Shown: piece after piece, positions 1 to 57,145 of the stretch
Layout: every line of letters begins with the position of its first letter
Numbering within the stretch: the first letter of the stretch is position 1
Origin: Planctomycetota bacterium
GTDB taxonomy: Bacteria; Planctomycetota; Phycisphaerae; Phycisphaerales; UBA1924
NCBI GenBank assembly: GCA_030950285.1
Contig: JAUZRR010000004.1
Span: 62,001-126,000, forward strand
Length of the DNA: 64,000 nucleotides
Direction: 5' to 3'
Program-made: the position numbers and the translations under genes
Notes under the pieces: model-generated
The model's database searches: none
The model's input: only the letters and a program-made list of their open reading frames with translations
Told to the model about the DNA's origin: nothing

Positions 1-85
1 CGCACTCGCCGAGCATCTCGGCGGTCGCCCGCCCGATGCCGCTGCCTGCTCCGGTCACGATCGCGACGCGCTGTGTGTTGTTCAT
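1..85 (-). CDS. Short-chain dehydrogenase/reductase, N-terminal fragment
   Basis: The gene enters the window from its 5' end and runs off the left edge, so only the first 28 codons are visible. They read MNNTQRVAIVTGAGSGIGRA followed by TAEMLGEC. The TGAGSGIG stretch is the TGxxxGIG nucleotide-binding motif of classical short-chain dehydrogenases, which bind NAD(P)H at exactly this place next to the first beta strand. The substrate cannot be told from this fragment. The start codon follows a TATCCT hexamer by 5 nt and has no Shine-Dalgarno sequence, so it is probably translated from a leaderless mRNA. It is divergent from the solute-binding protein gene at 148. Confidence 0.85.
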   Translation of the reverse strand, partial: MNNTQRVAIVTGAGSGIGRATAEMLGEC

Positions 86-90
86 GCCGG

Positions 91-96
91 AGGATA
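91..96 (-). promoter_or_regulatory. -10 element, leaderless type, for the dehydrogenase at 85
   Basis: TATCCT on the minus strand ends 5 nt before the ATG, which would put the transcription start at or next to the start codon. Confidence 0.55.
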
Positions 97-135
97 GGTG
101 CGGGTGTGCGGCGGCGGCCCTGCGATGTGCCCGCG

Positions 136-141
136 TACACT
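136..141 (+). promoter_or_regulatory. -10 element, leaderless type, for the gene at 148
   Basis: TACACT is followed by 6 nt (ccgccc) and then ATG at 148. This spacing decides in favour of 148 over the in-frame upstream ATG at 73. Confidence 0.6.
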
Positions 142-147
142 CCGCCC

Positions 148-1791
148 ATGGCCCGTGCTCGTCTGGTGATCGCTGCCTGCTTTCTGGTCGTCCTCGGTCT
201 GCCGATGCTGGTCGGGCGGTGTACGCGCAGCACCGACACCGCGGTGGACCGTGACGCCCCGGCGATCATCGTCATCACGCCGCACGTGGCGCAGATTCGC
301 AGCGAGTTTGCCAGGGCGTTCAGCGAGTGGCACCTCCGCAACTACGGCACGACCGCCCGGATCGACTTCCGCACCGTCGGCGGCACCAGCGAGATCATCC
401 GAGCCCTCGAGGCACGGTTCAACGCGGCGCTCGCGGCGGGAAAGTATATCCGCGAGAGTGATGGCACCATCACCATGCAGCCCGGCGCGGTCGACTTTGA
501 CATTATGTTCGGCGGCGGGTCGTACGACCACGGGGGGCTCAAATCGGGGGTTGTCTTTCAGATAGACGGCGAGGATATCCGTGTCCCGATATCGGTCCCT
601 GCGGGTTTTTCACAAGACCAACTCGACGAGTGGTTCGGCGACAACACGGTCGGCGCAGGCAAACTCTACGATCCCGACCAGTACTGGATCGGCAACGCAC
701 TCTCGGGCTTCGGCATCGTCTACAACCGCGACCTGACCCGTGAGTTGCTCGGCCGAGACGATCTCGACAGCTTCCGCGACCTCACCGACCCGCGCCTCGC
801 CGGGTGGGTTGCGCTGGCCGATCCGAGGCAGTCCGGTTCCATCACCACCTCGATGGACGCGATCCTCTCGGTGTTTGGATGGGACGAAGGGTGGCGCACC
901 CTCCGCGCGGCGGCGGCGAACACGCGGTACTTCACCAACTCATCGACCAAGCCTCCGATTGATGTCTCGCAGGGCGAGGCGGCGGCGGGGCTGGCGATCG
1001 ACTTCTACGGCCGGTCGCAGTCCCAGGTGGTAATGCGCCCCGGCGAGACCCCCGAGACCGCGCGCGTCGGGTATGTCGATCCGCCGGGCGAGGTTTCGAT
1101 CGATGCCGACCCGGTGTCGATCATCCGCGGCGGACCCAACCCCGAGCTCGCGCGGCGGTTCCTGGAGTTCACACTCTCCGACGAGGGGCAGGCGCTCTGG
1201 AACTTTCACGCGACCGAGACGCCCAGCGGCGAGACCAACCCGATGACTGCCGAGGGCGACCAGCTCGGCCCCAGACACTTCGAGCTCCGCCGGATGCCGA
1301 TCCGTCGTGATTTCTACGCGCGGTACCGCGAGTTTCTTATCGACAAGGTGGACCCCTTCGAGGCCGCGTCCGACACCCCCCCCGCCGGCTGGCGGTCCGC
1401 GATCGGGATGATGATGGGCGCGTTCGCGGTGGACAATCAGCACGCGATCCGCGAGGCGTGGGTGGCGCTGCGCGACGCCCGCGAGCGTGGTGTTGACCCG
1501 GCGCAGATCGCCGAAGCCGAGGCGGTGTTCTTTGCGTTCCCCACGCCCGAGCAGGTACGGCGCCACTGGATCGAGCGCTTTGGCGAGGCCGACTCTGCGG
1601 ACGCGGTCACGTTGCCGGACGATGCTTTGTTGTTCTTCACGCCCGAGAACTACCGTGCGATCCGGAATACATGGCGCAACCCGGCGGTCCAATCGCGCCT
1701 TAAGATTGTGTACGCCCGTGCGTTCGCCGAAAACTATCATCATGTCACCAGCACTCTCCAAGCCGCTTCCGATGCCGACCCAATCCACTGA
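148..1791 (+). CDS. Extracellular solute-binding protein, Fe3+-type ABC transporter family
   Basis: The 547-residue product starts with an Arg-containing n-region and a hydrophobic stretch (MARARLVIAACFLVVLGLPM), a probable signal peptide or membrane anchor; the Cys at residue 25 is preceded by Arg, so it is not a good lipobox. The body has features of periplasmic iron(III)/polyamine-type binding proteins: an early VGGTSEIIRALEARF stretch, FGGGSYDHGG, then GIVYNRDL and DLTDPRLAGWVALADPRQSG, which are typical of this fold. It is longer than the usual 330-350 residues, with an extra C-terminal region of about 180 residues rich in Ala, Arg and acidic residues. No permease or ATPase gene lies next to it in the window, so its transporter partner and substrate are not established. 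The start at 148 was chosen from the leaderless promoter. Confidence 0.8.
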   Translation: MARARLVIAACFLVVLGLPMLVGRCTRSTDTAVDRDAPAIIVITPHVAQIRSEFARAFSEWHLRNYGTTARIDFRTVGGTSEIIRALEARFNAALAAGKYIRESDGTITMQPGAVDFDIMFGGGSYDHGGLKSGVVFQIDGEDIRVPISVPAGFSQDQLDEWFGDNTVGAGKLYDPDQYWIGNALSGFGIVYNRDLTRELLGRDDLDSFRDLTDPRLAGWVALADPRQSGSITTSMDAILSVFGWDEGWRTLRAAAANTRYFTNSSTKPPIDVSQGEAAAGLAIDFYGRSQSQVVMRPGETPETARVGYVDPPGEVSIDADPVSIIRGGPNPELARRFLEFTLSDEGQALWNFHATETPSGETNPMTAEGDQLGPRHFELRRMPIRRDFYARYREFLIDKVDPFEAASDTPPAGWRSAIGMMMGAFAVDNQHAIREAWVALRDARERGVDPAQIAEAEAVFFAFPTPEQVRRHWIERFGEADSADAVTLPDDALLFFTPENYRAIRNTWRNPAVQSRLKIVYARAFAENYHHVTSTLQAASDADPIH

Positions 1792-1822
1792 CGCCACCGC
1801 GCCACAGACAAGGCCGCCGACG

Positions 1823-3397: not shown

Positions 3398-3425
3398 TGT
3401 CGAGGTCGTGCCTGAGGGCGATCCA

Positions 3426-3462
3426 CCCCGGGGCGGGACACTCCGGGGCCACGACTCTTTCT
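3426..3462 (+). terminator. Possible terminator after pyk, overlapping a GC-rich repeat
   Basis: A stem CCCCGG/CCGGGG (3426-3431 and 3443-3448) with an 11-nt loop is followed by a pyrimidine-rich tract containing CTCTTTCTT. The right part, GGGGCGGGACACTCCGGGG, recurs with few changes at 37957, 38124 and 38387, so this may be a mobile palindromic repeat that has landed where a terminator is useful. Confidence 0.45.
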
Positions 3463-3478
3463 TATCCTTGTTCCCTTC

Positions 3479-3484
3479 TATCAT
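3479..3484 (+). promoter_or_regulatory. -10 element, leaderless type, for thiS
   Basis: TATCAT, 6 nt (ctcccc), then ATG at 3491. Confidence 0.55.
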
Positions 3485-3490
3485 CTCCCC

Positions 3491-3691
3491 ATGGACATCA
3501 CCGTCAACGCCAAGCCGCACTCCCTCTCCGAAGGCACCACGCTCGCCGACCTCATCAGGGAACTCGGCCTCGCCGATGCGCCCTGTGCTGCGGAAGTCAA
3601 CCAGACCCTTGTTCCCAAACGCCGTCACGAACAGCACCCGCTCAGCGAGGGTGATGTTGTCGAACTGGTGACCCTCGTCGGCGGCGGGTGA
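3491..3691 (+). CDS. thiS: Sulfur carrier protein ThiS
   Basis: This 66-residue protein has the beta-grasp pattern of Thi[22 protein letters not shown] at the N-terminus, a central [11 protein letters not shown] strand, an [12 protein letters not shown] strand and a C-terminal Gly-Gly (the last residues are VGGG). In the family the terminal glycine is adenylated and converted to a thiocarboxylate, which delivers sulfur to the thiazole ring of thiamine. It is 61 nt upstream of thiG, its partner enzyme. Each of the two genes has its own leaderless-type promoter, so they need not be transcribed only as a unit. No thiF, thiO, thiC or thiE is in the window. Confidence 0.92.
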
Positions 3692-3740: not shown

Positions 3741-3746
3741 TATCCT
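3741..3746 (+). promoter_or_regulatory. -10 element, leaderless type, for thiG
   Basis: TATCCT, 6 nt (tcgggc), then ATG at 3753, located inside the short thiS-thiG gap. Confidence 0.55.
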
Positions 3747-3752
3747 TCGGGC

Positions 3753-4613
3753 ATGACCACCACCGCCACCACCACGACCACCACCGAGCCGGGGCTCTCC
3801 CCGTTCACCATCGCCGGCCGCACGTTCCAGAGCCGTCTCTTTGTCGGCACCGGGAAGTACACCGACTTCCCCACCATGCAGGCGGCGCTTGACGCCTCGG
3901 GTTCTGAGGTGGTCACGGTCGCGGTCCGCCGCGAGAGGCTGTACAACGATCGCGGCGAGTCGCTGCTCGACCATCTTGATACCGCGAGGTACACGATCCT
4001 CCCCAACACCGCGGGATGTTTCAGTGCGGAGGACGCGGTGCGGGTCGCGCGGCTCGGGCGCGAGCTGCTCGATCAGATGGGCAACGCGGGCGCGAGCTGG
4101 GTCAAGCTCGAAGTGCTGGGAGACAAGAAGACGCTGCTGCCCGACCCGGTCGGCACGCTCGAAGCCACCCGCGAACTGGTGGCTGACGGGTTCCAGGTGC
4201 TGTGCTATTCGAGCGATGACCCGATCTCTGCGGCACGGATCAAGGACGCGGGCGCAGCGAGCGTCATGCCCGCCGGCTCGCCGATCGGTTCGGGGCAGGG
4301 CGTCCTCAACCCCAACAATATTGTCCTGTGTCTCGAGGCGCTCAAGCGGGGTGACCCGACCTATCCGGTGATCGTTGATGCGGGTGTTGGTGCTGCGAGC
4401 GATGTCTCGCAGGCGATGGAACTCGGCGCCGACGGCGTGCTGCTCAACACCGCGATCGCCCACGCCAGAGAGCCGGTGATGATGGCCCACGCGATGCGCA
4501 AAGCCTGCGAAGCCGGGCGGCAGAGCTACCTGTCTGGGCGTATCGAGAAGAAGCTGTACGCGACCGCCAGCAGCCCGTTCGAGGGCGCGATCGGCTACAT
4601 CCCCGGCGAGTAA
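3753..4613 (+). CDS. thiG: Thiazole synthase ThiG
   Basis: ThiG condenses 1-deoxy-D-xylulose 5-phosphate, dehydroglycine and ThiS thiocarboxylate into the thiazole phosphate moiety of thiamine. The 286-residue product carries the family motifs [38 protein letters not shown] (the Schiff-base Lys lies here, near residue 117), [16 protein letters not shown] and [21 protein letters not shown], which form the TIM-barrel phosphate-binding loops. An unusual Thr-rich leader of about 12 residues (seven Thr within ten residues) precedes the conserved core. It follows thiS by 61 nt and ends 99 nt before the convergent gene at 4713. Confidence 0.96.
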
Positions 4614-6076: not shown

Positions 6077-6082
6077 TACGCT
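6077..6082 (+). promoter_or_regulatory. -10 element, leaderless type, for the transporter at 6089
   Basis: TACGCT, 6 nt (ccgccc), then ATG at 6089. The same ccgccc spacer occurs before the gene at 148. It decides against the in-frame ATG at 6035. Confidence 0.6.
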
Positions 6083-6088
6083 CCGCCC

Positions 6089-7447
6089 ATGCCCGCCTTG
6101 CTCACCCGCCTCAACCCCTTCGCAAAGCTCGACAACGGGCGGGCGGTCTGGGCGTGGGGGATGTTCGACCTGGCCAACCAGTCGTTCCAGCTGCTCATCA
6201 ACACGCTGCTGTTCTCGATCTTCATCCAGCAGGTCATCGTCCCGGCCGAGGACGGGGACACCAGCAAAGGCACCACCACCTGGATGCTCATGGCCGCGTC
6301 GAGCCTGCTCCTGGTGGTCGTCTTCTCGCCGATCCTCGGGGCGCTGGCCGACCACAAAGCATGGAAACGAGAACTGCTGCTGGGCTCGGGGCTGGTCTGC
6401 GCGCTGCTCACCTCGGCCCTGGCGTTCCTCCAGCCCGGGCAGGTCGGGCTGGCCTTTACGCTCTACGTGATCGCGGCGCTGGCGTGCGGCCTGGGCGAGA
6501 ACTTCCTCGGGGCGTTCCTGCCCGAGATCTCCACACCCAAGAACGTCGGCTACGTCTCGGCGCTGGGCTGGACCATGAGCTACATCGGGGCGTTGCTCCT
6601 GCTTGGGATCACCGCGGTCTACGCCCTGGTCCTGGGCAACGCCGAGCCCGAGCAGGCCCGACCGATGTTCCTGTTTGCCGGGCTGTGGTTCGCGGTGGGA
6701 ATCCTCCCGGCGTTCCTGTTCCTCCGCGAGAAAGCCACGCCGCAGGAGAAGGACGCCGAAGGGAAGGCGCGGGGGGTCGGAGTGGCGGTGGTCGAGGCGT
6801 TCGCGCGGCTGGTGCAAAGCGCCCGCCAGACCCGCCGCTACCGGGACCTGGGACGGTTCTTCATCGCGTTCTTTGTCTACAGCCTGGGCACGCAGACCGT
6901 CATCTACTTCCTGGGGCTGATCTCCAGCGAACTGGGCAACACGCTCGGCCAGACCATCCTCTTTGCACTGGTGGTGGCGTTGGCTGCGGGCCTGGCGTCG
7001 GCGGTGCTGGTGCGGGTGCAGGACCGGGTGGGGCACCTCCGCACGGTGCGCTTCTTCCTGATGGTGTGGGTGGCCGCGAGCCTCGGGCTGGCGCTGGTGC
7101 GGGTGCTCGACCCGCCGGCGGTCGCGTTCTGGATCATCGCCGGGCTGGTCGGGGTGGGGCTCGGGGGGATCGGGACCTCGAGCCGCGCGGTGGTGGGGGC
7201 GTTCAGCCCCGAAGCCAGGTCGGGGGAGTTCTTCGGCGTGTGGGGGACGACCTACAAACTCTCGGGGATCGTCGGCGTGCTGGCGTTCGGGCAGGTCAAG
7301 AACGTCTTTGGGCTGCCCGTGTCGCTGCTGGTGCTGGCGGGGTTCTTCGCGGCGGGGTTTGTGCTGCTGCGGCGGGTGGATGAAAGGGCGGGCATCGCCG
7401 CGGCGGCAGAAGAGGGAGACCAATCGCCTGTGCCGCCCGGGGCGTAG
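6089..7447 (+). CDS. MFS transporter, UMF1/Atg22-like family
   Basis: This 452-residue integral membrane protein shows about twelve hydrophobic segments. Its first segment, WAWGMFDLANQSFQLLINTLLF, has the WxxxDxANqsF pattern typical of the UMF1 branch of the major facilitator superfamily, to which the yeast vacuolar amino-acid effluxer Atg22 belongs. The loop PILGALADHKAWKRELL after the second helix pair corresponds to the MFS signature. A cytoplasmic central loop with charged residues (REKATPQEKDAEGKARG) lies between the two six-helix halves. Transport substrate cannot be read from the sequence. The stop codon TAG forms part of the -10 element of trpB, which starts 10 nt later. Confidence 0.85.
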   Translation: MPALLTRLNPFAKLDNGRAVWAWGMFDLANQSFQLLINTLLFSIFIQQVIVPAEDGDTSKGTTTWMLMAASSLLLVVVFSPILGALADHKAWKRELLLGSGLVCALLTSALAFLQPGQVGLAFTLYVIAALACGLGENFLGAFLPEISTPKNVGYVSALGWTMSYIGALLLLGITAVYALVLGNAEPEQARPMFLFAGLWFAVGILPAFLFLREKATPQEKDAEGKARGVGVAVVEAFARLVQSARQTRRYRDLGRFFIAFFVYSLGTQTVIYFLGLISSELGNTLGQTILFALVVALAAGLASAVLVRVQDRVGHLRTVRFFLMVWVAASLGLALVRVLDPPAVAFWIIAGLVGVGLGGIGTSSRAVVGAFSPEARSGEFFGVWGTTYKLSGIVGVLAFGQVKNVFGLPVSLLVLAGFFAAGFVLLRRVDERAGIAAAAEEGDQSPVPPGA

Positions 7448-7450
7448 AGT
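7445..7450 (+). promoter_or_regulatory. -10 element, leaderless type, for trpB
   Basis: TAGAGT, 6 nt (ctgggc), then ATG at 7457. The TAG of this hexamer is also the stop codon of the upstream transporter gene. Confidence 0.5.
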
Positions 7451-7456
7451 CTGGGC

Positions 7457-8755
7457 ATGACCCCCACAACCCCCACCACCCCCACGACACAGGACACCCA
7501 GACGCCCGACAAGACCCCAGCCCCCATCGTGCGCATCAGCGACGCCCCAACCGCCCAAGGCCGCTTCGGCCGCTTCGGCGGGTCGTACATCCCCGAGACC
7601 CTCGTCGCGGCGTGCACGCAGCTCAAAGAGGTCTACAAGAGCATCCAGCGCGACGAGCGGTTCTGGGAGGAGCTGCGCGATCTCCAGACCTACTACACAG
7701 GGCGGCCGACGGCGCTCTACCTCGCCGCAAGGCTCACCGCCAACGCCCGGGCCCGAGCCTCCCACGGCCACGGGGCGACGATCCTGCTCAAACGCGAGGA
7801 CCTCGCCCACACCGGGGCCCACAAGATCAACAACACCCTCGGGCAGGCGCTGCTGACCAAGAAGATGGGCAAACGCCGCATCATCGCCGAGACCGGAGCC
7901 GGGCAGCACGGCGTCGCCAGCGCGACGGCCGCCGCCCACTTCGGGCTCGAGTGCGATGTCTACATGGGCAGCGAGGACGCCCGCCGCCAACGGCTCAACG
8001 TCACCCGCATGAAGATGCTCGGGGCCAATGTCATCGAGGTCGATTCGGGTTCGCGCACGCTCAAGGACGCGACCAACGAGGCGATGCGGGACTGGATGGA
8101 TTCAGTCGAGCACACCCACTACATCATCGGCTCGGTCGTCGGGCCGCACCCCTTCCCGATGATCGTCCGAGACTTTCAATCCGTCATCGGGCAGGAGGCC
8201 AAAGCCCAGTGCCTGCGTCATATCGGGAAGCTGCCCGAGGCGATCGTCGCGTGTGTCGGCGGCGGGTCGAACGCGGCGGGCATCTTCTACTCGTTCATCG
8301 ACGACGAGCACGTGCGGCTGATCGGGGTCGAGGCGGGGGGGACGGCGATCGAGCCCGGCAAGCACGCGGCACCGCTTACCCACGGCGAGCCGGGCATCCT
8401 GCACGGGTCGCTCAGTTATGTGCTTCAGGACAAGGACGGGCAGACCAGCGACGTCCACTCCTGCTCGGCGGGGCTCGACTATCCCGGGGTCGGCCCCGAG
8501 CACGCGTACTGGAAGGAGTCCAGCCGCGTCCGCTACACGTCGTGCTCTGACGATGAGGCGCTCGATGCGTTTCTGCACCTGGCGAGGGCCGAGGGGATCA
8601 TCCCCGCGCTCGAGACCGCCCACGCGATCGCCGAGGGGATCCGGCTGGCGATCGAGATGCGCGAAGACGAGCACGTGCTGATCAACTGCTCGGGCCGTGG
8701 CGACAAGGATGTCGAGGAGGCTGCCCGGCTGCTCAAGGCTCGGGAGTCCGACTGA
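7457..8755 (+). CDS. trpB: Tryptophan synthase beta subunit
   Basis: TrpB joins indole and L-serine to L-tryptophan using pyridoxal phosphate. The 432-residue product has [12 protein letters not shown] near the N-terminus, [33 protein letters not shown] with the PLP Lys at about residue 123, [57 protein letters not shown] and the phosphate-binding [12 protein letters not shown]. The N-terminus carries a Thr/Pro-rich leader of about 25 residues. This is TrpB1-type and would normally pair with TrpA, but no trpA lies downstream; the next gene is convergent and overlaps the last 23 nt. trpD is about 23 kb away, so the tryptophan pathway is not an operon here. Confidence 0.97.
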
Positions 8756-15017: not shown

Positions 15018-15023
15018 TAGTAT
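15018..15023 (+). promoter_or_regulatory. -10 element, leaderless type, for the DUF2726 gene
   Basis: TAGTAT, 6 nt (gtcagc), then ATG at 15030. Confidence 0.6.
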
Positions 15024-15029
15024 GTCAGC

Positions 15030-15677
15030 ATGACCCCGACGCAACTCCTCCTCATCGCCGGCATCCTCCTGGGCACCGTCGTTGTCCTTATCGTCATTGC
15101 GGCGATCACCTTCCCGGGATTCCGGCGGGCGGTGGGCCGGGTGCTCGCCGAGATGTTGCAGGGCGCGGACGCGACCGATCAAGGCACCGACGCGAAGGGT
15201 GCCTCGGCTGCAACGTATCGACCCATGCCCGCCCTGCTCAGTCCGGCCGAGCGGGCGTTCTTCCCGCACGTCGAGGCCGTGCTGCCGAGTGTCGCCAAGC
15301 ACCTTGGGCTGGCCCCGCTCCGGGCGTTTGCCAAGGTGCGGCTTGCGGACCTCGTCGAGCCGGACTGCCCGCGCGGCAAGGGCACGCCTTACATGAGCTG
15401 GTTCGGCAAGATCAGCCAGAAGCACGTTGATGTTGTGCTTGTTGATACCGCGACGTTTCGGCCTGTCTGTGTCATTGAACTCGACGACCGCTCGCACCAA
15501 TCGGCCCGGGCCCGTGATCGCGACGCGACGAAGGATGCTGCCCTTGCTTCGGCCTTGATCCCCGTGGTTCGGATTGCCGCCGCAGTGAGGTATGACGATC
15601 GTGCGCTGGCTCGGAGCATCGCCGATGCCTTGGGCGGCGGGGGCGTGGGTGGTGTGGGGGGCGTGGGAGCGGGCTGA
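15030..15677 (+). CDS. DUF2726 domain protein with N-terminal membrane anchor
   Basis: The 215-residue product begins with a single strongly hydrophobic segment (LLLIAGILLGTVVVLIVIAA) and then carries a DUF2726 domain: LLSPAERAFFPHVEAVLPS, then VRLADLV, GKISQKHVDVVLVDTATFRP and VCVIELDDRSHQSARARDRD followed by KDAALASALIPVVRI. The ELDDxSH plus conserved Arg/Asp/Lys pattern resembles restriction-endonuclease-fold proteins, and this domain is often described as a topoisomerase or nuclease accessory, but no activity is proven. The protein ends in a low-complexity Gly/Val tail (GGGGVGGVGGVGAG). It stands alone between HPPD and a nucleotidyltransferase gene, each with its own promoter. Confidence 0.85.
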   Translation: MTPTQLLLIAGILLGTVVVLIVIAAITFPGFRRAVGRVLAEMLQGADATDQGTDAKGASAATYRPMPALLSPAERAFFPHVEAVLPSVAKHLGLAPLRAFAKVRLADLVEPDCPRGKGTPYMSWFGKISQKHVDVVLVDTATFRPVCVIELDDRSHQSARARDRDATKDAALASALIPVVRIAAAVRYDDRALARSIADALGGGGVGGVGGVGAG

Positions 15678-15699: not shown

Positions 15700-15705
15700 T
15701 ATAGT
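15700..15705 (+). promoter_or_regulatory. -10 element, leaderless type, for the gene at 15712
   Basis: TATAGT, 6 nt (ccgcac), then ATG at 15712. Confidence 0.6.
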
Positions 15706-15711
15706 CCGCAC

Positions 15712-16929
15712 ATGACACCCGCTGTGGTCTTTGACGACGGGCAGGGCGAGCTCGCCCCGCTGACCCACCTGCGTGCGGCGTTCGACGTGCGGACGGGGGC
15801 GTTGACGACGCTCGAACGGCTACGGCTTTCGCTGGGGCTGCAGGTGGTTGCGCTCTATGTGCCCGAAGTCCTTGCCGACCTGACCGCCGAGGCCCACGAC
15901 CTGGCGATCAACCGGCTGCCGGGCGATCTGGGTGAGGTGTTTGTGATGAACGGGCGGTGTCCGCTCCCGCCGGATCAGCTCCGCGAGCCCGAGCCCGGGG
16001 TGCTGTATATCGAGCCCGAGACCCACACGCCGGTGGGCGGGAAGCTTGGTTTGGTTGACGCGATCCGGGTGCTCGTCGGCGAGGTGCCGGAGGTGCGGAC
16101 CGAGACGCTCGAAGGCCCGGTGCTGATGAACCGCCCCTGGCACTTCCGCTCGGTGCGGGATCAGGCGATCCGGTTCGATCTGGAACTGATCCGCACGACG
16201 CGGATGTTCAAGCCGGTGCCCGATGGCGTGCTGGTGATCGGGTCGCGTGAGCAGGTGCTGGTGGACCATGACGCGACGGTCTATCCCGGCGCAACGCTCG
16301 ATGTCGAGGACGGGCCGATCTCGATCGCTGGGGGCGCGGTGCTGCGACCGGGGGCGGTGGTGATCGGGCCGACCGCGATCGGGCCGCACTCGGTGATCAG
16401 CGAGCACGCGGTGGTGCGGGCCAACACCGCGATCGGCCGCCGGTGCAAGATCGGGGGCGAGGTCGCGGGGACGGTGTTCCAGGGCTTTGCCAATAAAGTC
16501 CACGACGGGTACCTCGGCGATTCGTGGGTGGGCGAGTGGAGCAACCTCGGCGCGGGGACGACCAACTCGAACCTGCTGAACACCTATTCGGAGATCGTGA
16601 GTCAGGCATCACCCGACGGCCGCCGGGAGCGCACCGGCGAGACCTTTCTGGGCGCGATGATCGGCGACCACGTCAAGACCGCCATCGGCACGCGGATCAT
16701 GACCGGGTCGGTGATTCATACGGGCTCGATGTGGGCTTCGAGCGCCGCGGTGACCGGGTGCGTCGAGCCGTTCGCGTGGGTGACCGACACCGCACGGCGG
16801 AGCTACCGGCTCGACAAGTTTCTCGACGTGATGGGCGACGTGATGGCGCGGCGGGATGTCGAGCCGAGCGATGCGTATGTGGAGCGGTTGAAGGGGTTGC
16901 ATCAGGACTCGGTTGCGAGCAGCGCCTAA
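15712..16929 (+). CDS. GlmU-like sugar nucleotidyl/acyltransferase
   Basis: The 405-residue product has two parts. The N-terminal part (FDDGQGELAPLTHLRAAFDVRTGALTTLERLR) resembles the putative sugar-nucleotidyltransferase domain found next to left-handed beta-helix domains in GlmU-like proteins. The C-terminal part has hexapeptide-type repeats (VYPGATLDVEDGPISIAGGAVLRPGAVVIGPTAIGPHSVI) and the conserved WSNLGAGTTNSNLLNTY segment, which in bifunctional GlmU-like enzymes lies in the acetyl-CoA-binding helix. It probably activates a sugar phosphate, but whether it makes UDP-GlcNAc or another precursor is not visible. It is co-directional with polA, from which it is separated by a pair of inverted palindromic repeats. 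Confidence 0.8.
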   Translation: MTPAVVFDDGQGELAPLTHLRAAFDVRTGALTTLERLRLSLGLQVVALYVPEVLADLTAEAHDLAINRLPGDLGEVFVMNGRCPLPPDQLREPEPGVLYIEPETHTPVGGKLGLVDAIRVLVGEVPEVRTETLEGPVLMNRPWHFRSVRDQAIRFDLELIRTTRMFKPVPDGVLVIGSREQVLVDHDATVYPGATLDVEDGPISIAGGAVLRPGAVVIGPTAIGPHSVISEHAVVRANTAIGRRCKIGGEVAGTVFQGFANKVHDGYLGDSWVGEWSNLGAGTTNSNLLNTYSEIVSQASPDGRRERTGETFLGAMIGDHVKTAIGTRIMTGSVIHTGSMWASSAAVTGCVEPFAWVTDTARRSYRLDKFLDVMGDVMARRDVEPSDAYVERLKGLHQDSVASSA

Positions 16930-17038: not shown

Positions 17039-17044
17039 TACCAT
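17039..17044 (+). promoter_or_regulatory. -10 element, leaderless type, for polA
   Basis: TACCAT, 6 nt (gcggcg), then ATG at 17051. It lies just behind the repeat pair and decides against the frame extension to 16913. Confidence 0.6.
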
Positions 17045-17050
17045 GCGGCG

Positions 17051-23679: not shown

Positions 23680-23684
23680 CCCTC

Positions 23685-23690
23685 ATGATA
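23685..23690 (-). promoter_or_regulatory. -10 element, leaderless type, for the PAS-LuxR gene
   Basis: TATCAT on the minus strand, 5 nt (gaggg), then ATG at 23679. The gaggg could also be a very short ribosome binding site, but it lies too close to the start codon. Confidence 0.5.
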
Positions 23691-32546: not shown

Positions 32547-32552
32547 GGAGCT

Positions 32553-32558
32553 AGCTTA
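32553..32558 (-). promoter_or_regulatory. -10 element, leaderless type, for trpD
   Basis: TAAGCT on the minus strand, 6 nt (agctcc), then ATG at 32546. Confidence 0.5.
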
Positions 32559-32657: not shown

Positions 32658-32663
32658 TACACT
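32658..32663 (+). promoter_or_regulatory. -10 element, leaderless type, for the gene at 32670
   Basis: TACACT, 6 nt (ctcgag), then ATG at 32670. Confidence 0.6.
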
Positions 32664-32669
32664 CTCGAG

Positions 32670-39117: not shown

Positions 39118-39123
39118 TATGAT
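39118..39123 (+). promoter_or_regulatory. -10 element, leaderless type, for the gene at 39130
   Basis: TATGAT, 6 nt (agtctt), then ATG at 39130. Confidence 0.55.
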
Positions 39124-39129
39124 AGTCTT

Positions 39130-39684
39130 ATGGACGAGCAACTAATTGCGATTGTTGGCATTCTTTCAGGTCTTGCCGTTTCCACTTGCTCGCTCTTATT
39201 AACCTTCTACTTGTCGAAGCGGCGGGCCGATCACGAGCGGGAACAGATGAAGTATGGCGTTGTGTACACTCACCGATTTCGGGCTGCGATGAGGATTCAC
39301 GTGTTTCTTGCTCGACTGAGGGCGAGGTACGAAGAATACACCTATCAAGGTGACGGACCCTGCCAGCGCCGCCAGAATTATCCAGCGATGGAGGAAGCCG
39401 CGAATCGCTTTCGTCGTTCCGTTTGTGAGTACGAAGTTCTGTTTCCCGAACATATTGCCGATGGCTTTGATTCGATCTGGGAGCAAATCAAGTCACATCT
39501 CTACTATACAGTCGATGAAGATCGCAATCGGGGCATGATCGAACCAGATGTTCGGCGAAAGGCTCTCGCCGCGATGGATGATTCTATTTCTCAGGTGCAG
39601 ATATTCATGCGGAAGGAGTTTGGAGTTTCTTCCGCTGGGTCTCAAGCAGTTGACCATGCAAGCTCAACCGATCCGCCCCGGTGA
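39130..39684 (+). CDS. Small membrane-anchored protein of unknown function, AT-richer than its surroundings
   Basis: The 184-residue product has one N-terminal membrane segment (LIAIVGILSGLAVSTCSLLL) followed by a charged, helical cytoplasmic part (YLSKRRADHEREQMKYGVVY). I do not recognise a family. The reading frame is visibly less GC-rich than every neighbour, uses A/T in many third positions and has codons such as TTA and CTA that are rare nearby, which suggests recent acquisition. Its last 80 nt overlap the end of miaB on the other strand, and GC content returns to normal there, so the present C-terminus (SSAGSQAVDHASSTDPPR) may be read-through into miaB antisense sequence and not original coding sequence. 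Confidence 0.65.
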   Translation: MDEQLIAIVGILSGLAVSTCSLLLTFYLSKRRADHEREQMKYGVVYTHRFRAAMRIHVFLARLRARYEEYTYQGDGPCQRRQNYPAMEEAANRFRRSVCEYEVLFPEHIADGFDSIWEQIKSHLYYTVDEDRNRGMIEPDVRRKALAAMDDSISQVQIFMRKEFGVSSAGSQAVDHASSTDPPR

Positions 39685-41347
39685 TCCGCAGCTTGAGCAA
39701 CTGCCCCGCCAGCGCATCGCGTTGCTCGGCTGGGGCGTTGAAAAAGACGATTAGGTCGGTATCGGTGCGACCGGAGAGCTGGACGGGCTCGGCGTCGAGT
39801 GTTGCAACTTGCGGCGACGCGGGTCCGGGGACTGAAGCCCCCCGGCTCGGAGGGGCGGGGGCTTCGAGTGTTGGGGAGTTGCCGTTGACGGTCAGGGTGA
39901 TTGCGCCGCCCGCGCGGCGGATGTCGCCGTGGCTCATGCCTTCGCGTTTGAGCTGTTGCTTGCTGGGGCCTTCGACAAAGACCTCGACCTCGCGGCCGAC
40001 CTGTTCGCGGGCGATCTGGTCGGAAATCTCTGACTGGACCGCCAGCAGGTCGTTGTTCCGGCGGCGCTTCACCTCGTCGGGCACGTCGTCGGGGATGCGG
40101 TCGTAGGCGACGGTGCCGGGGCGGGGGGAGTACTTGAATATAAAGCAATTCTTATATCGCGATCGGCGGAGCAGCGCGACGGTCGCGGCGTAGTCCTCGT
40201 CGGTCTCGGTGGGAAAGCCGACGATGATGTCTCCCGAGAGCATGAGCGGGCGGCCGAGCTCGGGCTGATCGAGATAGCCGCGGGCGCGGTCGATGAAATC
40301 GTTATATTCCTCGACGGTGTAGCCGCGGTTCATCTTCTTGAGCAGGCGGTTGGATCCGGTCTGTGCGGGGACGTGGAGGTATCGGCAGATGCGTGGGTGG
40401 TCGCGGATGACCTCGAGCACGTCGTCGCCGAAGTCGCGCGGGTAGCTGGTAACAAAGCGGAGGCGTTGGACCGCGGGGACCTCGTCGTGGATCCGGGCGA
40501 GCAGGTCGGCGAACGTCGTCGTCGATTCACCCGCGAAGGCGTCGCGTTGATGGCTGCCCTTGTAGGTCCGGCCCTTCTGCGGCTGTTCGATCCCGCCGAG
40601 GCTGATCGAGGAGCCGTGCTCGAAGCGGTAGTGGTTGACGGTCTGCCCGAGCAGTGTGATCTCGATGACGCCGGCGTCGGCGAGTTTCTTGCACTCGTCG
40701 ATGATGTGGTCAGGCGGGCGGTGGATCTCGGCGCCGCGGGTGAAGGGCACGACGCAGTAGGTGCAGAACTTGTTGCAGCCACGGGTGATGCGGACGTACG
40801 CCGATCGACTCGCTGCGCCCGACGCGGGATCGACCGGTGAGACGGCGCGGGAGAGATCGAGCAGCTCGAGCGAGTCCTCCGCGGCGGCCAGTGTCGCACT
40901 GCGGCGGCTGGTGTTGCCCTGGAGTGCAACGAACTCGGCCGGCCGCGCTCTCCTCGCGGGGCTCTGTTCGGCGAGGCTTTCTTTGGTGCGGACCGCGTTA
41001 TCGAGGAGTGCGGGGAGTTTGTCGAGTTCGCCCGGGCCGCACATGAGATCGACGACCGGCATGCGGCGGATGAGGTCCACGCCGTCGCGTTCGGCCATGC
41101 AGCCGAGAACGCCGACGACGACCGACGGGTCGCGGTTCTTGCGATGGGTCAGTTCGCCCAGTCGGCTCCAGACCTTTTGCTCGGCCTGCTCGCGGACCGA
41201 GCAGGTGTTGTAGAGGACGACGTCCGCGTCCGCAGCGTTGCCGGTAAAGGCGTACCCGAGGCGGGCGAGCTGCCCGGCGACAAGCTCGGAATCAAGCTCG
41301 TTCATCTGGCAGCCGAAGGTTTCGAGATAGATGGTGCGTCCGGTCAT
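39605..41347 (-). CDS. miaB: tRNA-2-methylthio-N6-dimethylallyladenosine synthase
   Basis: MiaB is a radical-SAM methylthiotransferase that modifies A37 of tRNAs reading UNN codons. The 580-residue product has the UPF0004 domain (YLETFGCQMNELDSELVAGQ with Cys13, NTCSVREQAEQKVWSRLGEL, GVLGCMAERDG), the radical-SAM motif CNKFCTYCVVPFTRG (Cys191, Cys195, Cys198), and a C-terminal TRAM region. Usual length is 440-480 residues. The excess is in three inserts: about 35 residues before the radical-SAM motif (RSATLAAAEDSLELLDLSRA), about 25 after NHYRFEHG (QPQKGRTYKGSHQRDAFAGE), and a Pro/Ala-rich stretch inside the TRAM region. Core motifs are intact, so it should be active. Confidence 0.93.
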   Translation of the reverse strand: MTGRTIYLETFGCQMNELDSELVAGQLARLGYAFTGNAADADVVLYNTCSVREQAEQKVWSRLGELTHRKNRDPSVVVGVLGCMAERDGVDLIRRMPVVDLMCGPGELDKLPALLDNAVRTKESLAEQSPARRARPAEFVALQGNTSRRSATLAAAEDSLELLDLSRAVSPVDPASGAASRSAYVRITRGCNKFCTYCVVPFTRGAEIHRPPDHIIDECKKLADAGVIEITLLGQTVNHYRFEHGSSISLGGIEQPQKGRTYKGSHQRDAFAGESTTTFADLLARIHDEVPAVQRLRFVTSYPRDFGDDVLEVIRDHPRICRYLHVPAQTGSNRLLKKMNRGYTVEEYNDFIDRARGYLDQPELGRPLMLSGDIIVGFPTETDEDYAATVALLRRSRYKNCFIFKYSPRPGTVAYDRIPDDVPDEVKRRRNNDLLAVQSEISDQIAREQVGREVEVFVEGPSKQQLKREGMSHGDIRRAGGAITLTVNGNSPTLEAPAPPSRGASVPGPASPQVATLDAEPVQLSGRTDTDLIVFFNAPAEQRDALAGQLLKLRITGADRLSLHGQLLETQRKKLQTPSA

Positions 41348-41355
41348 GTGCGGAG

Positions 41356-41361
41356 ATAGTA
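41356..41361 (-). promoter_or_regulatory. -10 element, near-leaderless, for miaB
   Basis: TACTAT on the minus strand, 8 nt (ctccgcac), then ATG at 41347. The mRNA would begin within about two bases of the start codon. Confidence 0.45.
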
Positions 41362-43138: not shown

Positions 43139-43147
43139 GGCGGTTGC

Positions 43148-43673: not shown

Positions 43674-45004
43674 GGCGCGCTCTCGCCCTGGTAGTACCAC
43701 TCCTCGGCGATCTGGACCAGCCGGAGGATAAGGTCGTCGAAGTTGGAGATGCCGGCGCGCTGGAAGAGGCGGAACAGATAGCGGGACGATTCCTCGATGC
43801 CGCGTGCTTCGATGAGCCGTCGGCGGAGTTCGAGCTGGGCTTCGTAGAGCGTGCGGGAGTTGTCCTCGATCTGGTCGAGATACACCCAGTAGGTGAAGGT
43901 CCCCGCGTTGATCGGCCCTTGCCACTGCCCGATCGAGAGCTGCGAGGCCGCCGCCTGGAGTGGTTCGAGCCCGAACAGTTCGGTCTCTGCGAGACTCTCG
44001 GCCAACTCGCGGATCACAGGATCGGGCGTCTGGTTGTGTTCGTTCGCGACAACCTCGACAAATGGGGTGGTGTTCAGCGCGTCCGTGATCTCGGCAACCG
44101 CCTCGGGCTCGTCGGTGCGCACCCGGATGAGCCGAAAGACCGCCGACCGGGGTGGGTTGAACTCGTCGGCGTTGCGTTCATATTCGAGGATAAGGTCGCG
44201 GGAGGTGACCTGCACGCGGTCGCGGATGCGTTGCTGAACCTGCGCGACCAGCGCCGCACGCTCGCGTTGACGCTTTGCCTCTGCAAGCCCGATGCCCGAC
44301 GTGCGGCGGAGCTGCTCGTCGGCGAGGGTCTGGCTGCCGTAGGAACTGCGGACAACGTCCTTCTCGAACCGTTGGAGGAAGACACGGAGCCCGGCCCGTT
44401 CCTGATCGGTGAGCGCCGAGCGAGCTTCGGCAAGAAAGAGCTCTTCCTGAAGATCGGAGATGAGACGGTCGTTGATAATCCCGGCGGCCAAGCTGCGCCA
44501 CTCCGGGCGGGACTTCTCAGCAGACTCGGCGCGGAGACGCGGGCCGAGCGGTTCGAGCCAGCTCCGAGCAACGATCGGCAGCCCGTTGAGATCGCCGACC
44601 TTCGCGTCGACGATCACGAGATTGGAGGCATCGATCGGGGCGGATGAAGGCCGGGGCCGACCGACCCCATCGTTCGGCGCAGTGCGGTCGGACGAAACGA
44701 ACGCGGGGTCCCCGGTGCTGACTCCGACCTCACCGACACCGGCGCTGGCTTGTTCTTCGGTGAGCGATCGGATCTCGACCCGTTCGGCGCGGGGGCGTTC
44801 TGGGGTGTACGCGGGGATCGGGGTGTGCGAGCCGGTCGAGGTCGCGGCGGGATTCCGGAAGTCGCCGGCCGAGAGGCGTGTGCCGCTTGAAAGCTTCGGC
44901 AGTGACACACCGCTGCAACCCGCGAGGAGGAGCGCCAGCAACGCGACGGTTTGTCGCGTGAAGCGATTCCGACGCGATCGGCGATGTTGTTGAACGTCTA
45001 TCAT
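43670..45004 (-). CDS. Exported lipoprotein, SurA/PpiC-like chaperone N-domain type
   Basis: The 444-residue product begins with a basic n-region, a hydrophobic stretch and LLALLLAGCSG, a good lipobox (L-A-G-C), so it should be a lipoprotein. After a Pro/Ser/Thr-rich linker it has helical sequence like the chaperone part of peptidyl-prolyl isomerases of the SurA/PrsA group: NDRLISDLQEELFLAEARSA, QVQQRIRDRVQVTSRDLILE, and YERNADEFNPPRSAVFRLIR. No clear parvulin catalytic domain is visible, so it may be a chaperone only. The gene is translationally coupled to yraN and divergent from the DUF1844 gene, with only 32 nt between the two start codons. Confidence 0.65.
   Translation of the reverse strand: MIDVQQHRRSRRNRFTRQTVALLALLLAGCSGVSLPKLSSGTRLSAGDFRNPAATSTGSHTPIPAYTPERPRAERVEIRSLTEEQASAGVGEVGVSTGDPAFVSSDRTAPNDGVGRPRPSSAPIDASNLVIVDAKVGDLNGLPIVARSWLEPLGPRLRAESAEKSRPEWRSLAAGIINDRLISDLQEELFLAEARSALTDQERAGLRVFLQRFEKDVVRSSYGSQTLADEQLRRTSGIGLAEAKRQRERAALVAQVQQRIRDRVQVTSRDLILEYERNADEFNPPRSAVFRLIRVRTDEPEAVAEITDALNTTPFVEVVANEHNQTPDPVIRELAESLAETELFGLEPLQAAASQLSIGQWQGPINAGTFTYWVYLDQIEDNSRTLYEAQLELRRRLIEARGIEESSRYLFRLFQRAGISNFDDLILRLVQIAEEWYYQGESAP
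44999..45004 (+). promoter_or_regulatory. -10 element of the DUF1844 gene, overlapping the divergent start codon
   Basis: TATCAT on the plus strand coincides with the start codon of the minus-strand lipoprotein gene. It would start a leader of about 25 nt that ends in AAAGGAA, 8 nt before ATG at 45037. Confidence 0.45.
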
Positions 45005-45012
45005 GCGGGAGA

Positions 45013-45018
45013 ATCCTA
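45013..45018 (-). promoter_or_regulatory. -10 element, near-leaderless, for the lipoprotein gene
   Basis: TAGGAT on the minus strand, 8 nt (tctcccgc), then ATG at 45004. Confidence 0.5.
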
Positions 45019-52686: not shown

Positions 52687-52692
52687 TAGGAT
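52687..52692 (+). promoter_or_regulatory. -10 element, leaderless type, for nadC
   Basis: TAGGAT, 7 nt (gtgggcg), then ATG at 52700. It overlaps the in-frame ATG at 52691, which therefore is unlikely to be the start. Confidence 0.5.
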
Positions 52693-52699
52693 GTGGGCG

Positions 52700-53662
52700 A
52701 TGCCGCCGGTTGATCTCAACACGTTGCCCTTGCCCGCTCTGTTCGAGGAGTTGGCCACGTTGGGGCGTCTCGGCCGATTCCTGGAGCTTGTGCGGGAAGA
52801 AGACCTCGGGCCGGACGGACTCGACGTGACCAGCCTGCTGGCGGTGGGGGCGAGCGAGCAACTGCGGGCGGAGGTGCGGGTGCGGGAGGCGGGGGTCGTC
52901 GCCGGGCTGGCGACGTTGGAGCCGATCGTCGAGGCGTTTGGTGCGGACGTGGGTGTCGAGCTGCACACAGCCGACGGCGAGCACGTCGAGCGAGGCCGTT
53001 CGGTCGCGGTGATTGAAGGCAGCGCCCGCGACGTGCTCGCGGTCGAGCGCCCGATGCTCAACCTGCTCGGGCGGCTGTCGGGTGTGGCGACTCGGACCGC
53101 CGCGTTTGTCGAGGCGATGGGCGAGGGGTGGCCTGCGAAACTTTTCGATACGCGGAAGACAACGCCCGGGCTTCGTCATCTCGAGAAGTACGCGGTACGC
53201 TGCGGCGGCGGGTGCTGCCACCGGCTCGGGCTGCACGACGCGGTGCTCGTCAAAGACAACCACATCGCCGCGATGGGCAGCGGGTCGTGGGCCGAACGGG
53301 TCGGCACGATGGCGGCTGCGGCGCGGGCACGGTTCGGCGAGCACCTGCGGTTTATCGAGGTCGAGGTGGACGGGCTCGCACAGTTCGAGCGGTTGCTCGC
53401 GCTCGACATGGGGAGGCCGGCAGTGGGGGTGCCGGCAGTGGGGGTGATCGACGTGGTGTTGCTTGACAACATGCCGGTTGCGGACATGCGCCAGGCCGTC
53501 ACGATGCGCGATGCGCAGCAGCCGGCCCTGCAACTCGAAGCGTCCGGGGGCGTGACGCTCGAGACCGTGCGCGATGTCGCCAGCAGCGGTGTGGACCGGA
53601 TCAGCGTCGGCTCGCTCACGCATCACGCGGTGTCGCTGGACTTCGGGCTGGACGCGGTGTGA
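52700..53662 (+). CDS. nadC: Nicotinate-nucleotide pyrophosphorylase (carboxylating)
   Basis: NadC converts quinolinate and PRPP to nicotinate mononucleotide in de novo NAD synthesis. The 320-residue product has the N-terminal ELVREEDLGPDGLDVTSLLA, VAVIEGSARDVLAVERPMLN, LLGRLSGVATRTAAFVEAMG, KLFDTRKTTPGLRHLEKYAV, VRCGGGCCHRLGLHDAVLVK, DNHIAAMG and the barrel end VVLLDNM, LEASGGVTLETVRDVASSGV. A 15-bp tandem duplication adds a repeated PAVGV segment just before VVLLDNM. The gene overlaps birA at its stop codon. Confidence 0.96.
   Translation: MPPVDLNTLPLPALFEELATLGRLGRFLELVREEDLGPDGLDVTSLLAVGASEQLRAEVRVREAGVVAGLATLEPIVEAFGADVGVELHTADGEHVERGRSVAVIEGSARDVLAVERPMLNLLGRLSGVATRTAAFVEAMGEGWPAKLFDTRKTTPGLRHLEKYAVRCGGGCCHRLGLHDAVLVKDNHIAAMGSGSWAERVGTMAAAARARFGEHLRFIEVEVDGLAQFERLLALDMGRPAVGVPAVGVIDVVLLDNMPVADMRQAVTMRDAQQPALQLEASGGVTLETVRDVASSGVDRISVGSLTHHAVSLDFGLDAV
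53416..53445 (+). repeat. Perfect 15-bp tandem duplication inside nadC
   Basis: GCCGGCAGTGGGGGT occurs twice in succession and is in frame, giving PAVGVPAVGV in the loop before the conserved LLDNM strand. It looks like a recent slippage event. Confidence 0.85.
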
Positions 53663-54462: not shown

Positions 54463-54469
54463 AAGCACT

Positions 54470-54586: not shown

Positions 54587-54632
54587 AGGTCAACCACATC
54601 AAGAACAACGAATCACCGCGACGCCAGAGGTT

Positions 54633-55043
54633 TTAGAGCAACCGCGCGAGCTTGCGGCCGAGTTCTGCGCCGGCCTCTTCGTCGAGAGCTTCTGCGTTCC
54701 AGACAATGCCCAGGCCGTGGGCGTCGGTCTTGGGGATGACGTGGAAATGGACGTGCGGCACCGCCTGATAGGCGAGGCTGCCGTTGTTCTGGAGGATGTT
54801 GATCGCGGTTGCCCCCGAGACCCTCATGACCGCGCGGCTGATTCTAGGCAGCACGCGCCCGATCGCTGCGGCTGATTCGTCAGAAAGTTCGTCGATCGTG
54901 GCGACGGGCTCTTTGGGAACCACAAGGGTGTGCCCCGGCGCGATCGGGTTGATGTCGAGGAACGCGAGGGTGAGTTCGTCCTCGTACACGCGGTGGCAGG
55001 GGATTTCGTTGCGGATGATTTTGCTGAAGATGCTGTCGCTCAT
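54633..55043 (-). CDS. HIT family nucleotide-binding protein (HinT-like)
   Basis: The 136-residue product has SIFSKIIRNEIPCHRVYEDE, LAFLDINPIAPGHTLVVPKE and the catalytic triad PHVHFHVIP near residue 106, the Hint branch of the histidine-triad family. These proteins hydrolyse purine nucleoside phosphoramidates and related adenylates in the cytoplasm. The length (about 110-140 residues) is normal. The start codon follows a leaderless-type promoter. It is divergent from mutL with 101 nt between starts, and convergent with birA across the repeat pair. Confidence 0.93.
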   Translation of the reverse strand: MSDSIFSKIIRNEIPCHRVYEDELTLAFLDINPIAPGHTLVVPKEPVATIDELSDESAAAIGRVLPRISRAVMRVSGATAINILQNNGSLAYQAVPHVHFHVIPKTDAHGLGIVWNAEALDEEAGAELGRKLARLL

Positions 55044-55049
55044 GCAGCG

Positions 55050-55055
55050 AGTGTA
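55050..55055 (-). promoter_or_regulatory. -10 element, leaderless type, for the HIT gene
   Basis: TACACT on the minus strand, 6 nt (cgctgc), then ATG at 55043. Confidence 0.6.
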
Positions 55056-55132
55056 GTGCCCGCGCGGGCTCGCCGGGCGGGGAGAGAATCCAGCCCGGAG
55101 CGGGGCCGCCACGGGTTGCGCCGCTGCGCGGT

Positions 55133-55138
55133 TACAAT
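55133..55138 (+). promoter_or_regulatory. -10 element, leaderless type, for mutL
   Basis: TACAAT, 6 nt (gacccc), then ATG at 55145. Confidence 0.6.
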
Positions 55139-55144
55139 GACCCC

Positions 55145-57145
55145 ATGCAGCAGGCCGTGCCTCAACCCTCTTCGGACGCCCCCGGTCCCCCTCCGCCGGG
55201 TGACCGCAGGATTCGTCGGCTCAGAACACTGCTGGTCAACCAGATCGCGGCTGGGGAGGTCGTCGAGCGGCCGGCGAGCGTGGTGAAGGAACTGCTCGAG
55301 AACGCCCTCGATGCGGGGGCGACGCGGGTGCGGATCGAGATCGAGTCGGGCGGCATCGAGCTGGTCCGGGTCACCGACGACGGCGTGGGGATGGGCAAAG
55401 ACGACCTGCCTCTCGCGGTCGCGCCGCATGCGACGAGCAAGATCGAGACCGCGACCGATCTGGACCGGATCGCGACGTTCGGGTTCCGAGGCGAGGCGTT
55501 GGCCTCGATCGCGTCGGTCTCACGGATGTCGATCCGCTCGCGCACCGCCTCCGAGCCGGGCGGGTGGCAGCTCGATATCGAAGGCGATGTCGTCGGGGCT
55601 GTCCGGCCCGCATCGGGCGCGGTGGGGACGAGTGTTGCGGCGCGAAATCTCTTCTTCAACACGCCCGCACGGCGGAAGTTTTTGCGGACCGTCGGCACCG
55701 AGCGGACGCGGTGCATCGACGTGGTCCGCGCGTGCGCGATGTCCCACGCGGCTGTCGCGTTCGAGGCGTTGGTCGACGGCAAGTCGGTACTCGACGTCCC
55801 CCCCGGGCAGTCGCCGCGCGATCGGGCGCTGGCGATCCTCGGCAAAGAGCTCGAGAGCGAGATGATCGAGGTGCGGGCCGATCGGTACGACGACGCGCGC
55901 GGGCTGAGCCTGTGGGGGCTCGTCGGCAAGCCCTCGACCGCGCGGGCAACGGCGCGCGCCCAGCACCTGTTCATCAACGGCCGCGCGATCAAGGACCGCA
56001 CCGTGCAGCACGCGGTCGGCGAGGCGTTCCGCGGCCTGATCGAGCCGGGGCGGTACCCGACCGCGGTGGTCATGCTCGAGCTCTCGCCCGAAGGCGTGGA
56101 CGTCAACGTCCACCCGCAGAAGACGGAGGTGCGGTTCCGCGATCAGTCGATGGTGCACTCGGTGGTGCTGCGGGCGGTGCGCGAAGCGCTGGCGCGGGAG
56201 GACCTGACGCCGAGCCTTGGCGGGCGGCTTGATGGCTCGGGCAGAGGGCAACGCCCGGGCAGCGCGACGGAGATTCTGCCCGGTGGTGTCGGTGGTGGTG
56301 TCGCTGGCGGGGCGGACGTCGGCACGCGGGGGTTTGTCGATTTCTTCAAGCGGGCGATCCCGGAACGGGCGCAGCATCGGCTGAGCTACGACGCGGTGCG
56401 TGAAGCGATCGAGCGTGTCGAGCGCGCGGGGACCGAACCGGCCGAACAGGGAGCGGCCCAGACCGGAACACCCCGGGCGGAAGTGCCGGATGCCGGTCGG
56501 GGGTTCGAGAGTTCCGCCGAGGCGCAGCGAGCGGACGCGGGTGCTGCGGCGTTGCCTGCACCGGTCCCGGCCCACCGTGTGTTGCAGGTCCACAACAGCT
56601 ATCTGGTGACCCAGGACGAGCACGGCGTCGTGATCGTCGATCAGCACGCGCTGCACGAGCGGGTGATGTTCGAGATTCTCTACGCGCGGGTGAGCGAGGG
56701 CGTGCTCGAGAGTCAGCAGCTGCTCACCCCCGCGGTGGTCGAGGCAACACCCGAACGCATCGAACGGCTGGGCGAGCTTGCGGCGCTCCTGGCAAAGATC
56801 GGCATCGTGGCCGAGCCGATGGGGCCGCGGACCGTCGGCGTGCGGAGCTTTGCGACGCTGCTCTTTGAGCGCGGCGTGGACCCGGTCGAGTTCATGCAGG
56901 AGCTGCTCGACAAAGCAGACCGCGAGAGGTTTGTGCCCGATAGTGAGGAGGCGCTCCGCGAGGTGCTCGACATGATGGCCTGCAAGGCCGCGGTCAAAGC
57001 GGGGGACCGGATGAGCGACGACGAGCTGCGGGCGCTGCTGGAGCTGCGGGGAGAGGTCGAACGGAGTAGCAACTGTCCGCATGGGCGGCCGACGTCGGTG
57101 CGGCTGACGATTTCAGAACTCGAACGGCTGTTCGGCCGGTCGTGA
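55145..57145 (+). CDS. mutL: DNA mismatch repair protein MutL, endonuclease type
   Basis: MutL links mismatch recognition by MutS to strand incision. The 666-residue product has the GHKL ATPase motifs LLVNQIAAGEVVERPASVVK, ELLENALDAGATRVRIE, VTDDGVGM, HATSKIETATDLDRIATFGF and FRGEALASIASV, then VAARNLFFNTPARRKFLRT. After a Gly/Ala/Pro-rich linker the C-terminal domain carries the metal-dependent nicking motif as DQHALHERVMFE (DQHAx2Ex4E) together with ACKAAVKAG and NCPHGRPTSV. This means it should nick DNA itself, as in bacteria without MutH. mutS is not in the window. Confidence 0.96.
   Translation: MQQAVPQPSSDAPGPPPPGDRRIRRLRTLLVNQIAAGEVVERPASVVKELLENALDAGATRVRIEIESGGIELVRVTDDGVGMGKDDLPLAVAPHATSKIETATDLDRIATFGFRGEALASIASVSRMSIRSRTASEPGGWQLDIEGDVVGAVRPASGAVGTSVAARNLFFNTPARRKFLRTVGTERTRCIDVVRACAMSHAAVAFEALVDGKSVLDVPPGQSPRDRALAILGKELESEMIEVRADRYDDARGLSLWGLVGKPSTARATARAQHLFINGRAIKDRTVQHAVGEAFRGLIEPGRYPTAVVMLELSPEGVDVNVHPQKTEVRFRDQSMVHSVVLRAVREALAREDLTPSLGGRLDGSGRGQRPGSATEILPGGVGGGVAGGADVGTRGFVDFFKRAIPERAQHRLSYDAVREAIERVERAGTEPAEQGAAQTGTPRAEVPDAGRGFESSAEAQRADAGAAALPAPVPAHRVLQVHNSYLVTQDEHGVVIVDQHALHERVMFEILYARVSEGVLESQQLLTPAVVEATPERIERLGELAALLAKIGIVAEPMGPRTVGVRSFATLLFERGVDPVEFMQELLDKADRERFVPDSEEALREVLDMMACKAAVKAGDRMSDDELRALLELRGEVERSSNCPHGRPTSVRLTISELERLFGRS

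Follow-up and report, generated by a model that had tools for sequence, protein, structure and literature searches.

Candidate leaderless gene starts marked by a TANNNT box six nucleotides before ATG in a Phycisphaerales genome and other Planctomycetota

About one gene in seven in the sampled part of a Phycisphaerales genome (about 14% net of chance, main and hold-out samples pooled) is preceded by a TANNNT hexamer immediately upstream of its start codon, with a sharp preference for a spacing of 6 nt. These hexamers are very probably sigma-70-type promoters reduced to a -10 element, as in Deinococcus, whose transcripts would be leaderless. The leaderless-promoter reading is supported by every sequence test that was run, namely the spacing peak, the depletion of Shine-Dalgarno (SD) sequences, the preference for C before the ATG, the operon context and the conservation in relatives. 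The window analysed is a stretch of 64,000 bases, positions 62001-126000 on contig 34, from a draft genome of 3.10 Mb in 62 contigs with a GC content of about 66%. An earlier sequence-only reading of the window had described the genome as planctomycete-like, which is right: the host is a Phycisphaerales MAG (Planctomycetota). The closest relatives of the SdhA protein encoded in the window are found in Phycisphaerales and other planctomycete MAGs, the nearest being PNC22 with 92% identity.

The main sample comprised 815 kb of the same genome, the window included, and a further 386 kb, fetched once the tests were fixed, served as the hold-out; the shares given here refer to this part of the genome. 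Gene starts were taken from a home-made, unpublished caller, which called 618 genes in the 815 kb. The chance level for gene-level counts was obtained by dinucleotide shuffling of the upstream sequence. The sequence-only reading had suggested a genome-wide histogram of TANNNT positions as a check, and in the 815 kb this histogram displays a sharp peak at 6 nt. An annotation-independent count before ATGs opening at least 100 codons gives 70 TANNNT hexamers at spacer 6, where the background is 10.3 per offset, and the peak has shoulders at 5, 7 and 8. In the same 815 kb, GTG starts give a weaker signal at spacer 6 (31 vs 16), the ATGs of short open reading frames show no TANNNT peak, and TTG and control triplets show none at spacer 6. 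A box at 5-8 nt precedes 106 of the 618 called genes (17.2%), compared with a shuffled mean of 12.4 (2.0%) and a shuffled maximum of 21. In the hold-out, 38 of 299 genes (12.7%) carry it, against a mean of 4.5 (1.5%) and a maximum of 9. Judged from the shuffle rate, about 1 in 8 individual boxes may be due to chance. Within the window, 15 of the 44 called genes have a box at spacer 4-8 where 1.3 are expected, which corresponds to about 31%; since this is well above the net share of about 14%, the window alone overstates the frequency of the box. The same discrepancy implies some clustering or selection, and it is compatible with the explanation that TANNNT is simply short and that starts were picked for having one. 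The annotation-free histogram, the shuffles, the hold-out and the ortholog conservation described below all far exceed chance, so that this explanation is already refuted for the bulk of the boxes and retains a negligible probability.

All 18 hexamers listed for the window by the sequence-only reading were checked letter by letter; each matches TANNNT at exactly the spacing claimed, and each of the 18 starts is ATG. At 16 of the 18 sites the gene is backed by Pfam, by the coding model or by both. Eleven sites on the plus strand have spacer 6. They precede a solute-binding protein gene (ATG 148, 136..150, TACACT; box in 4/4 orthologs), a thiS-like gene (ATG 3491, 3479..3493, TATCAT), thiG (ATG 3753, 3741..3755, TATCCT; 4/9 orthologs), an MFS transporter gene (ATG 6089, 6077..6091, TACGCT; 5/6 orthologs), a gene for a PLP-dependent enzyme (ATG 7457, 7445..7459, TAGAGT; 2/2 orthologs), a DUF2726 gene (ATG 15030, 15018..15032, TAGTAT), a sugar nucleotidyltransferase-like gene with hexapeptide repeats (ATG 15712, 15700..15714, TATAGT; 10/11 orthologs), polA (ATG 17051, 17039..17053, TACCAT; 5/16 orthologs), the gene of a 782-aa protein without Pfam match (ATG 32670, 32658..32672, TACACT), a doubtful 184-aa open reading frame (ATG 39130, 39118..39132, TATGAT) and mutL (ATG 55145, 55133..55147, TACAAT). 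The spacer is 7 at the quinolinate phosphoribosyltransferase gene, also on the plus strand (ATG 52700, 52687..52702, TAGGAT), for which 52691 is an alternative in-frame ATG. On the minus strand, spacer 6 is found at a glycosyl transferase family 3 (a/b domain) gene (ATG 32546, 32544..32558, TAAGCT) and at a HIT-domain gene (ATG 55043, 55041..55055, TACACT; box in 1/2 orthologs), and spacer 5 at a LuxR/PAS regulator gene (ATG 23679, 23677..23690, TATCAT) and at a short-chain dehydrogenase gene (ATG 85, 68..98, TATCCT), which is complete at 254 codons when read beyond the left window edge. Spacer 8 occurs at a UPF0004/radical-SAM gene (ATG 41347, 41345..41361, TACTAT) and at a rotamase-like gene (ATG 45004, 45002..45018, TAGGAT), both on the minus strand.

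The claim that these starts lack a Shine-Dalgarno sequence is ambiguous at 52700 and 45004, where the TAGGAT box itself holds AGGA at 8-9 nt, and these two could alternatively be SD sites. At 23679, only 1 nt separates an upstream GAGG from the ATG, too little for an SD function. The open reading frame at 39130-39684 has no Pfam match and was not called by the coding model, which leaves it doubtful as a gene; it may also be a recent acquisition. Its start region is locally AT-richer and its coding signal is weak. At 7445-7450 the stop codon TAG of the upstream MFS gene forms the first half of the TAGAGT box of the start at 7457, so that a stop codon and a putative promoter overlap; TANNNT also stands before the orthologous start in two relatives.

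Shine-Dalgarno 4-mers were found in 4 of 108 marked genes in the main sample and in 1 of 38 in the hold-out, a rate below the 8% background at random coding positions. Among unmarked genes, an SD is present in 25% when the start is fixed and in 63% when any candidate start is allowed. The marked starts show the three features of the TA-led genes of Zheng 2011 (PMC3160421): a TANNNT-type box about 12 bp before the start, here at -12..-7 for spacer 6, a box count above that of dinucleotide-shuffled upstream sequence in both samples, and no SD at the same start apart from 5 of the 146 marked genes.

Many bacterial genes possess several promoters. The boxes might accordingly be secondary promoters near the start, with the main translated mRNA carrying a leader from a more distant promoter. 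With SD present in 5/146 marked genes, such a leadered mRNA would need SD-free initiation as well, and the spacer peaks at the sole value that places +1 on the ATG; we regard this explanation as highly improbable. The leaderless-promoter reading itself faces some difficulty from the boxes at spacer 7-8, which imply leaders of 1-2 nt or a shifted +1.

The genomic context of the box points in the same direction as its position. The net excess amounts to 20% for genes with a divergent upstream neighbour, to 17% for co-directional genes with a gap above 100 nt, to 11% for gaps of 40-100 nt and to 3% for gaps of at most 40 nt. The hold-out shows the same trend, weaker and in small numbers, with a box in 3 of 45 genes with a gap of at most 40 nt. 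The box excess is concentrated at the first genes of transcription units, a feature by which leaderless mRNAs are recognized. The statement that downstream operon genes instead use SD sites, with sdhA and sdhB as examples, is supported statistically for close-spaced genes and also for sdhB, which has AGGAG 9 nt before the ATG at 48617; the SD of sdhA is weak or distant. The base immediately before the ATG is C in 53 of the 70 spacer-6 sites of the genome itself and in 81 of 108 pooled sites (about 75%), versus 44% at SD-led ATG genes. Bacterial transcription starts prefer a pyrimidine-purine step, and for this reason the C at -1 fits the leaderless reading.

These observations bear on a rival explanation in which the box, instead of being a promoter, signals translation initiation within a leadered mRNA, for example as an AU-rich S1 site or a context of the Bacteroidetes Kozak-like type. 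Nakagawa 2017 (PMC5397173) regards the AT-rich upstream bias of a planctomycete as a possible sign of leaderless initiation and/or S1 sites, and the present genome encodes a multi-domain S1 protein. A translation signal should nevertheless be as frequent at close-spaced operon genes, yet the excess drops there from about 20% to 3%. The gapped TA-NNN-T pattern at a fixed 6-nt spacer, dominated by T, A and T, resembles a -10 element and not a diffuse AU-rich site, and a bias for C at -1 is expected from a transcription start, not from S1 binding. Taken together, we consider a translation signal very unlikely.

The leaderless-promoter reading is also consistent with the sequence of the box and the cellular machinery. 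In 243 sites from the genome and its relatives the consensus is TA-Y-N-M-T; the middle positions, unconstrained in the search, are biased as well, with 79% Y and, at the fifth position, 83% A or C. A -35 element and an extended -10 were sought in these 243 sites and neither stands out (TTG 34 vs 32 and TTGA 4 vs 6 in the -35 window and the control window, respectively); the -10-motif genes of the Deinococcus type likewise have no conserved -35 region. RpoD is standard: the PDB chains nearest to it belong to principal sigma factors of bacteria, and its region 2.3-2.4 is almost identical to that of E. coli RpoD. Region 4 of this protein (G000 C7:13902-14612, L165) is ordinary, although the putative leaderless promoters show no -35 motif. 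The genome encodes IF3. No 16S gene was found in the source MAG, and the anti-SD was therefore taken from relatives, whose 16S terminates in the normal anti-SD CACCTCCTT. The presence of IF3, of the S1 protein and of a normal anti-SD in relatives suggests that leaderless starts add to SD initiation and replace nothing.

Conservation was assessed on 55 ortholog pairs alignable at the start, drawn from 12 spacer-6 genes and 20 family-level relatives; the pairs are not independent. TANNNT is kept at spacer 4-9 in 35 of the 55 pairs, with a chance level of 1.2%, although at -60..-21 the pairs share an identity of just 0.29-0.32, near that of unrelated DNA. In pairs of unmarked genes a box was found in 2 of 63. 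Conservation of the box at orthologous starts, here across 12 genes, is likewise a feature of the Deinococcus-type -10-motif genes. Among the ortholog pairs the box persists through shifts of one or two bases in its spacing, which fits selection for a promoter close to the ATG. Single loci turn over, as the polA box is retained in only 5 of 16 relatives.

From the sequence we infer a promoter function of the box, transcription from the A of the ATG and translation by the 70S/AUG-first route. In the proposed model, TANNNT would serve a housekeeping promoter of the RpoD type as its -10 element, and transcription would start at the A of the ATG or no more than 1-2 nt away. RNA polymerase would read mainly T-12, A-11 and T-7, with no conserved -35 or extended -10. 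The 5′-terminal AUG of the resulting leaderless transcript would be bound directly by a ribosome loaded with initiator tRNA and not through anti-SD pairing. About 14% of genes, chiefly the first in their transcription units, would begin in this way, and the others, including close-spaced downstream genes, would use SD sites.

To examine the spread of the signal in 128 Planctomycetota genomes, ATGs preceded by TAYNNT were counted at spacer 6 and, in the same genomes, at a control spacer of 14. Of the 128 genomes, 90 were tested for excess; those omitted are mostly AT-rich or belong to near-duplicate genera. A reversed-pattern control for this survey was judged poor, and the spacing-14 pattern was used on the same genomes instead. 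Among the 90 tested, 33 genomes in 15 families have a spacer-6 excess at p < 1e-5. Of these, 31 fall among the 53 genomes with low control density, which are GC-rich, and none among the 23 with high control density. The test is uninformative in AT-rich genomes because background swamps the signal. Per Mb, the excess is highest in the source genome among all those tabulated. In pooled 20-kb stretches of GC-rich members, the excess is weaker and broader, at 6-9 nt. Family f25 (G076, G094, G110, G122), which lies outside the class of the source genome, has a spacer-6 excess of 25-39 per Mb, nearly as strong. Deinococcus deserti plasmid 2 as the positive control and C. necator pHG1 as the negative control gave 29 and 16 excess boxes per Mb, respectively, samples too small to be separated, and the two were given no weight. 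Tentatively, -10-only leaderless expression might be an ancestral, phylum-wide trait of Planctomycetota beside SD initiation; its visibility in the GC-rich members would follow from the low chance frequency of TANNNT in their genomes.

Should mapped 5′ ends agree, leaderless expression would count as routine in the phylum Planctomycetota, as it does in Actinobacteria and Deinococcota. The annotation of gene starts would then be affected in thousands of planctomycete MAGs, a simple minimal promoter would become available for expression tools in Planctomycetota, and a data point would be gained on whether bacterial leaderless initiation is ancestral.

Leaderless transcription was taken by the sequence-only reading as established in actinobacteria and Deinococcus, in agreement with the literature (PMC3160421, PMC3898074, PMC12340547). 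Of the 953 bacterial genomes covered by Zheng 2011, 207 had leaderless genes led by TANNNT, and Planctomycetes are absent from the phyla listed there (PMC3160421). In the Deinococcus -10-motif study, a reporter shows that TANNNT 6-7 bp from the open reading frame suffices without a -35, and Planctomycetota may be among the phyla in the domain-wide bacterial survey of that study (Fig. S7; PMC12340547). By the predictions of GeneMarkS-2, as quoted in PMC9581028, 21.6% of bacterial species have leaderless transcription, and these predictions may cover some planctomycetes. Our literature search returned no report of leaderless -10-box starts for Planctomycetota and nothing relevant on transcription start-site mapping in planctomycetes. 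The mechanism is already known; what appears to be new, within the searchable literature, is the documentation of how prevalent and how conserved the signal is in Planctomycetota.

The nucleotide bias described by Nakagawa 2017 likewise suggests leaderless and/or S1-type initiation, but it concerns one species, comes without a test of -10 spacing, context or orthologs and does not separate the two modes (PMC5397173). The signal resembles that of Actinobacteria such as Streptomyces and Mycobacterium in the TANNNT about 12 bp upstream, the GC-rich genome and the mixture with SD genes (PMC3160421, PMC3898074). It differs in that ATG predominates among the planctomycete starts, GTG giving a weaker signal and TTG none, and in that the actinobacterial side has RNA evidence whereas the planctomycete case is known from sequence. 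The high share was rightly called notable for planctomycetes, but about 14% net is below the published figures of about 20% for Actinobacteria and about 30-40% for Deinococcus-Thermus (20% and 40%, respectively, in PMC3160421). With the -10-motif genes of Deinococcus-Thermus, the boxes share the TANNNT sequence, the position 6-7 bp before the open reading frame, the mostly missing -35, the coexistence with GGAG ribosome-binding sites and the conservation across orthologs (PMC12340547, PMC3160421). Deinococcus-Thermus is another phylum, and the share reported there, about 30-46%, exceeds the net share of about 14% deduced here from genome data.
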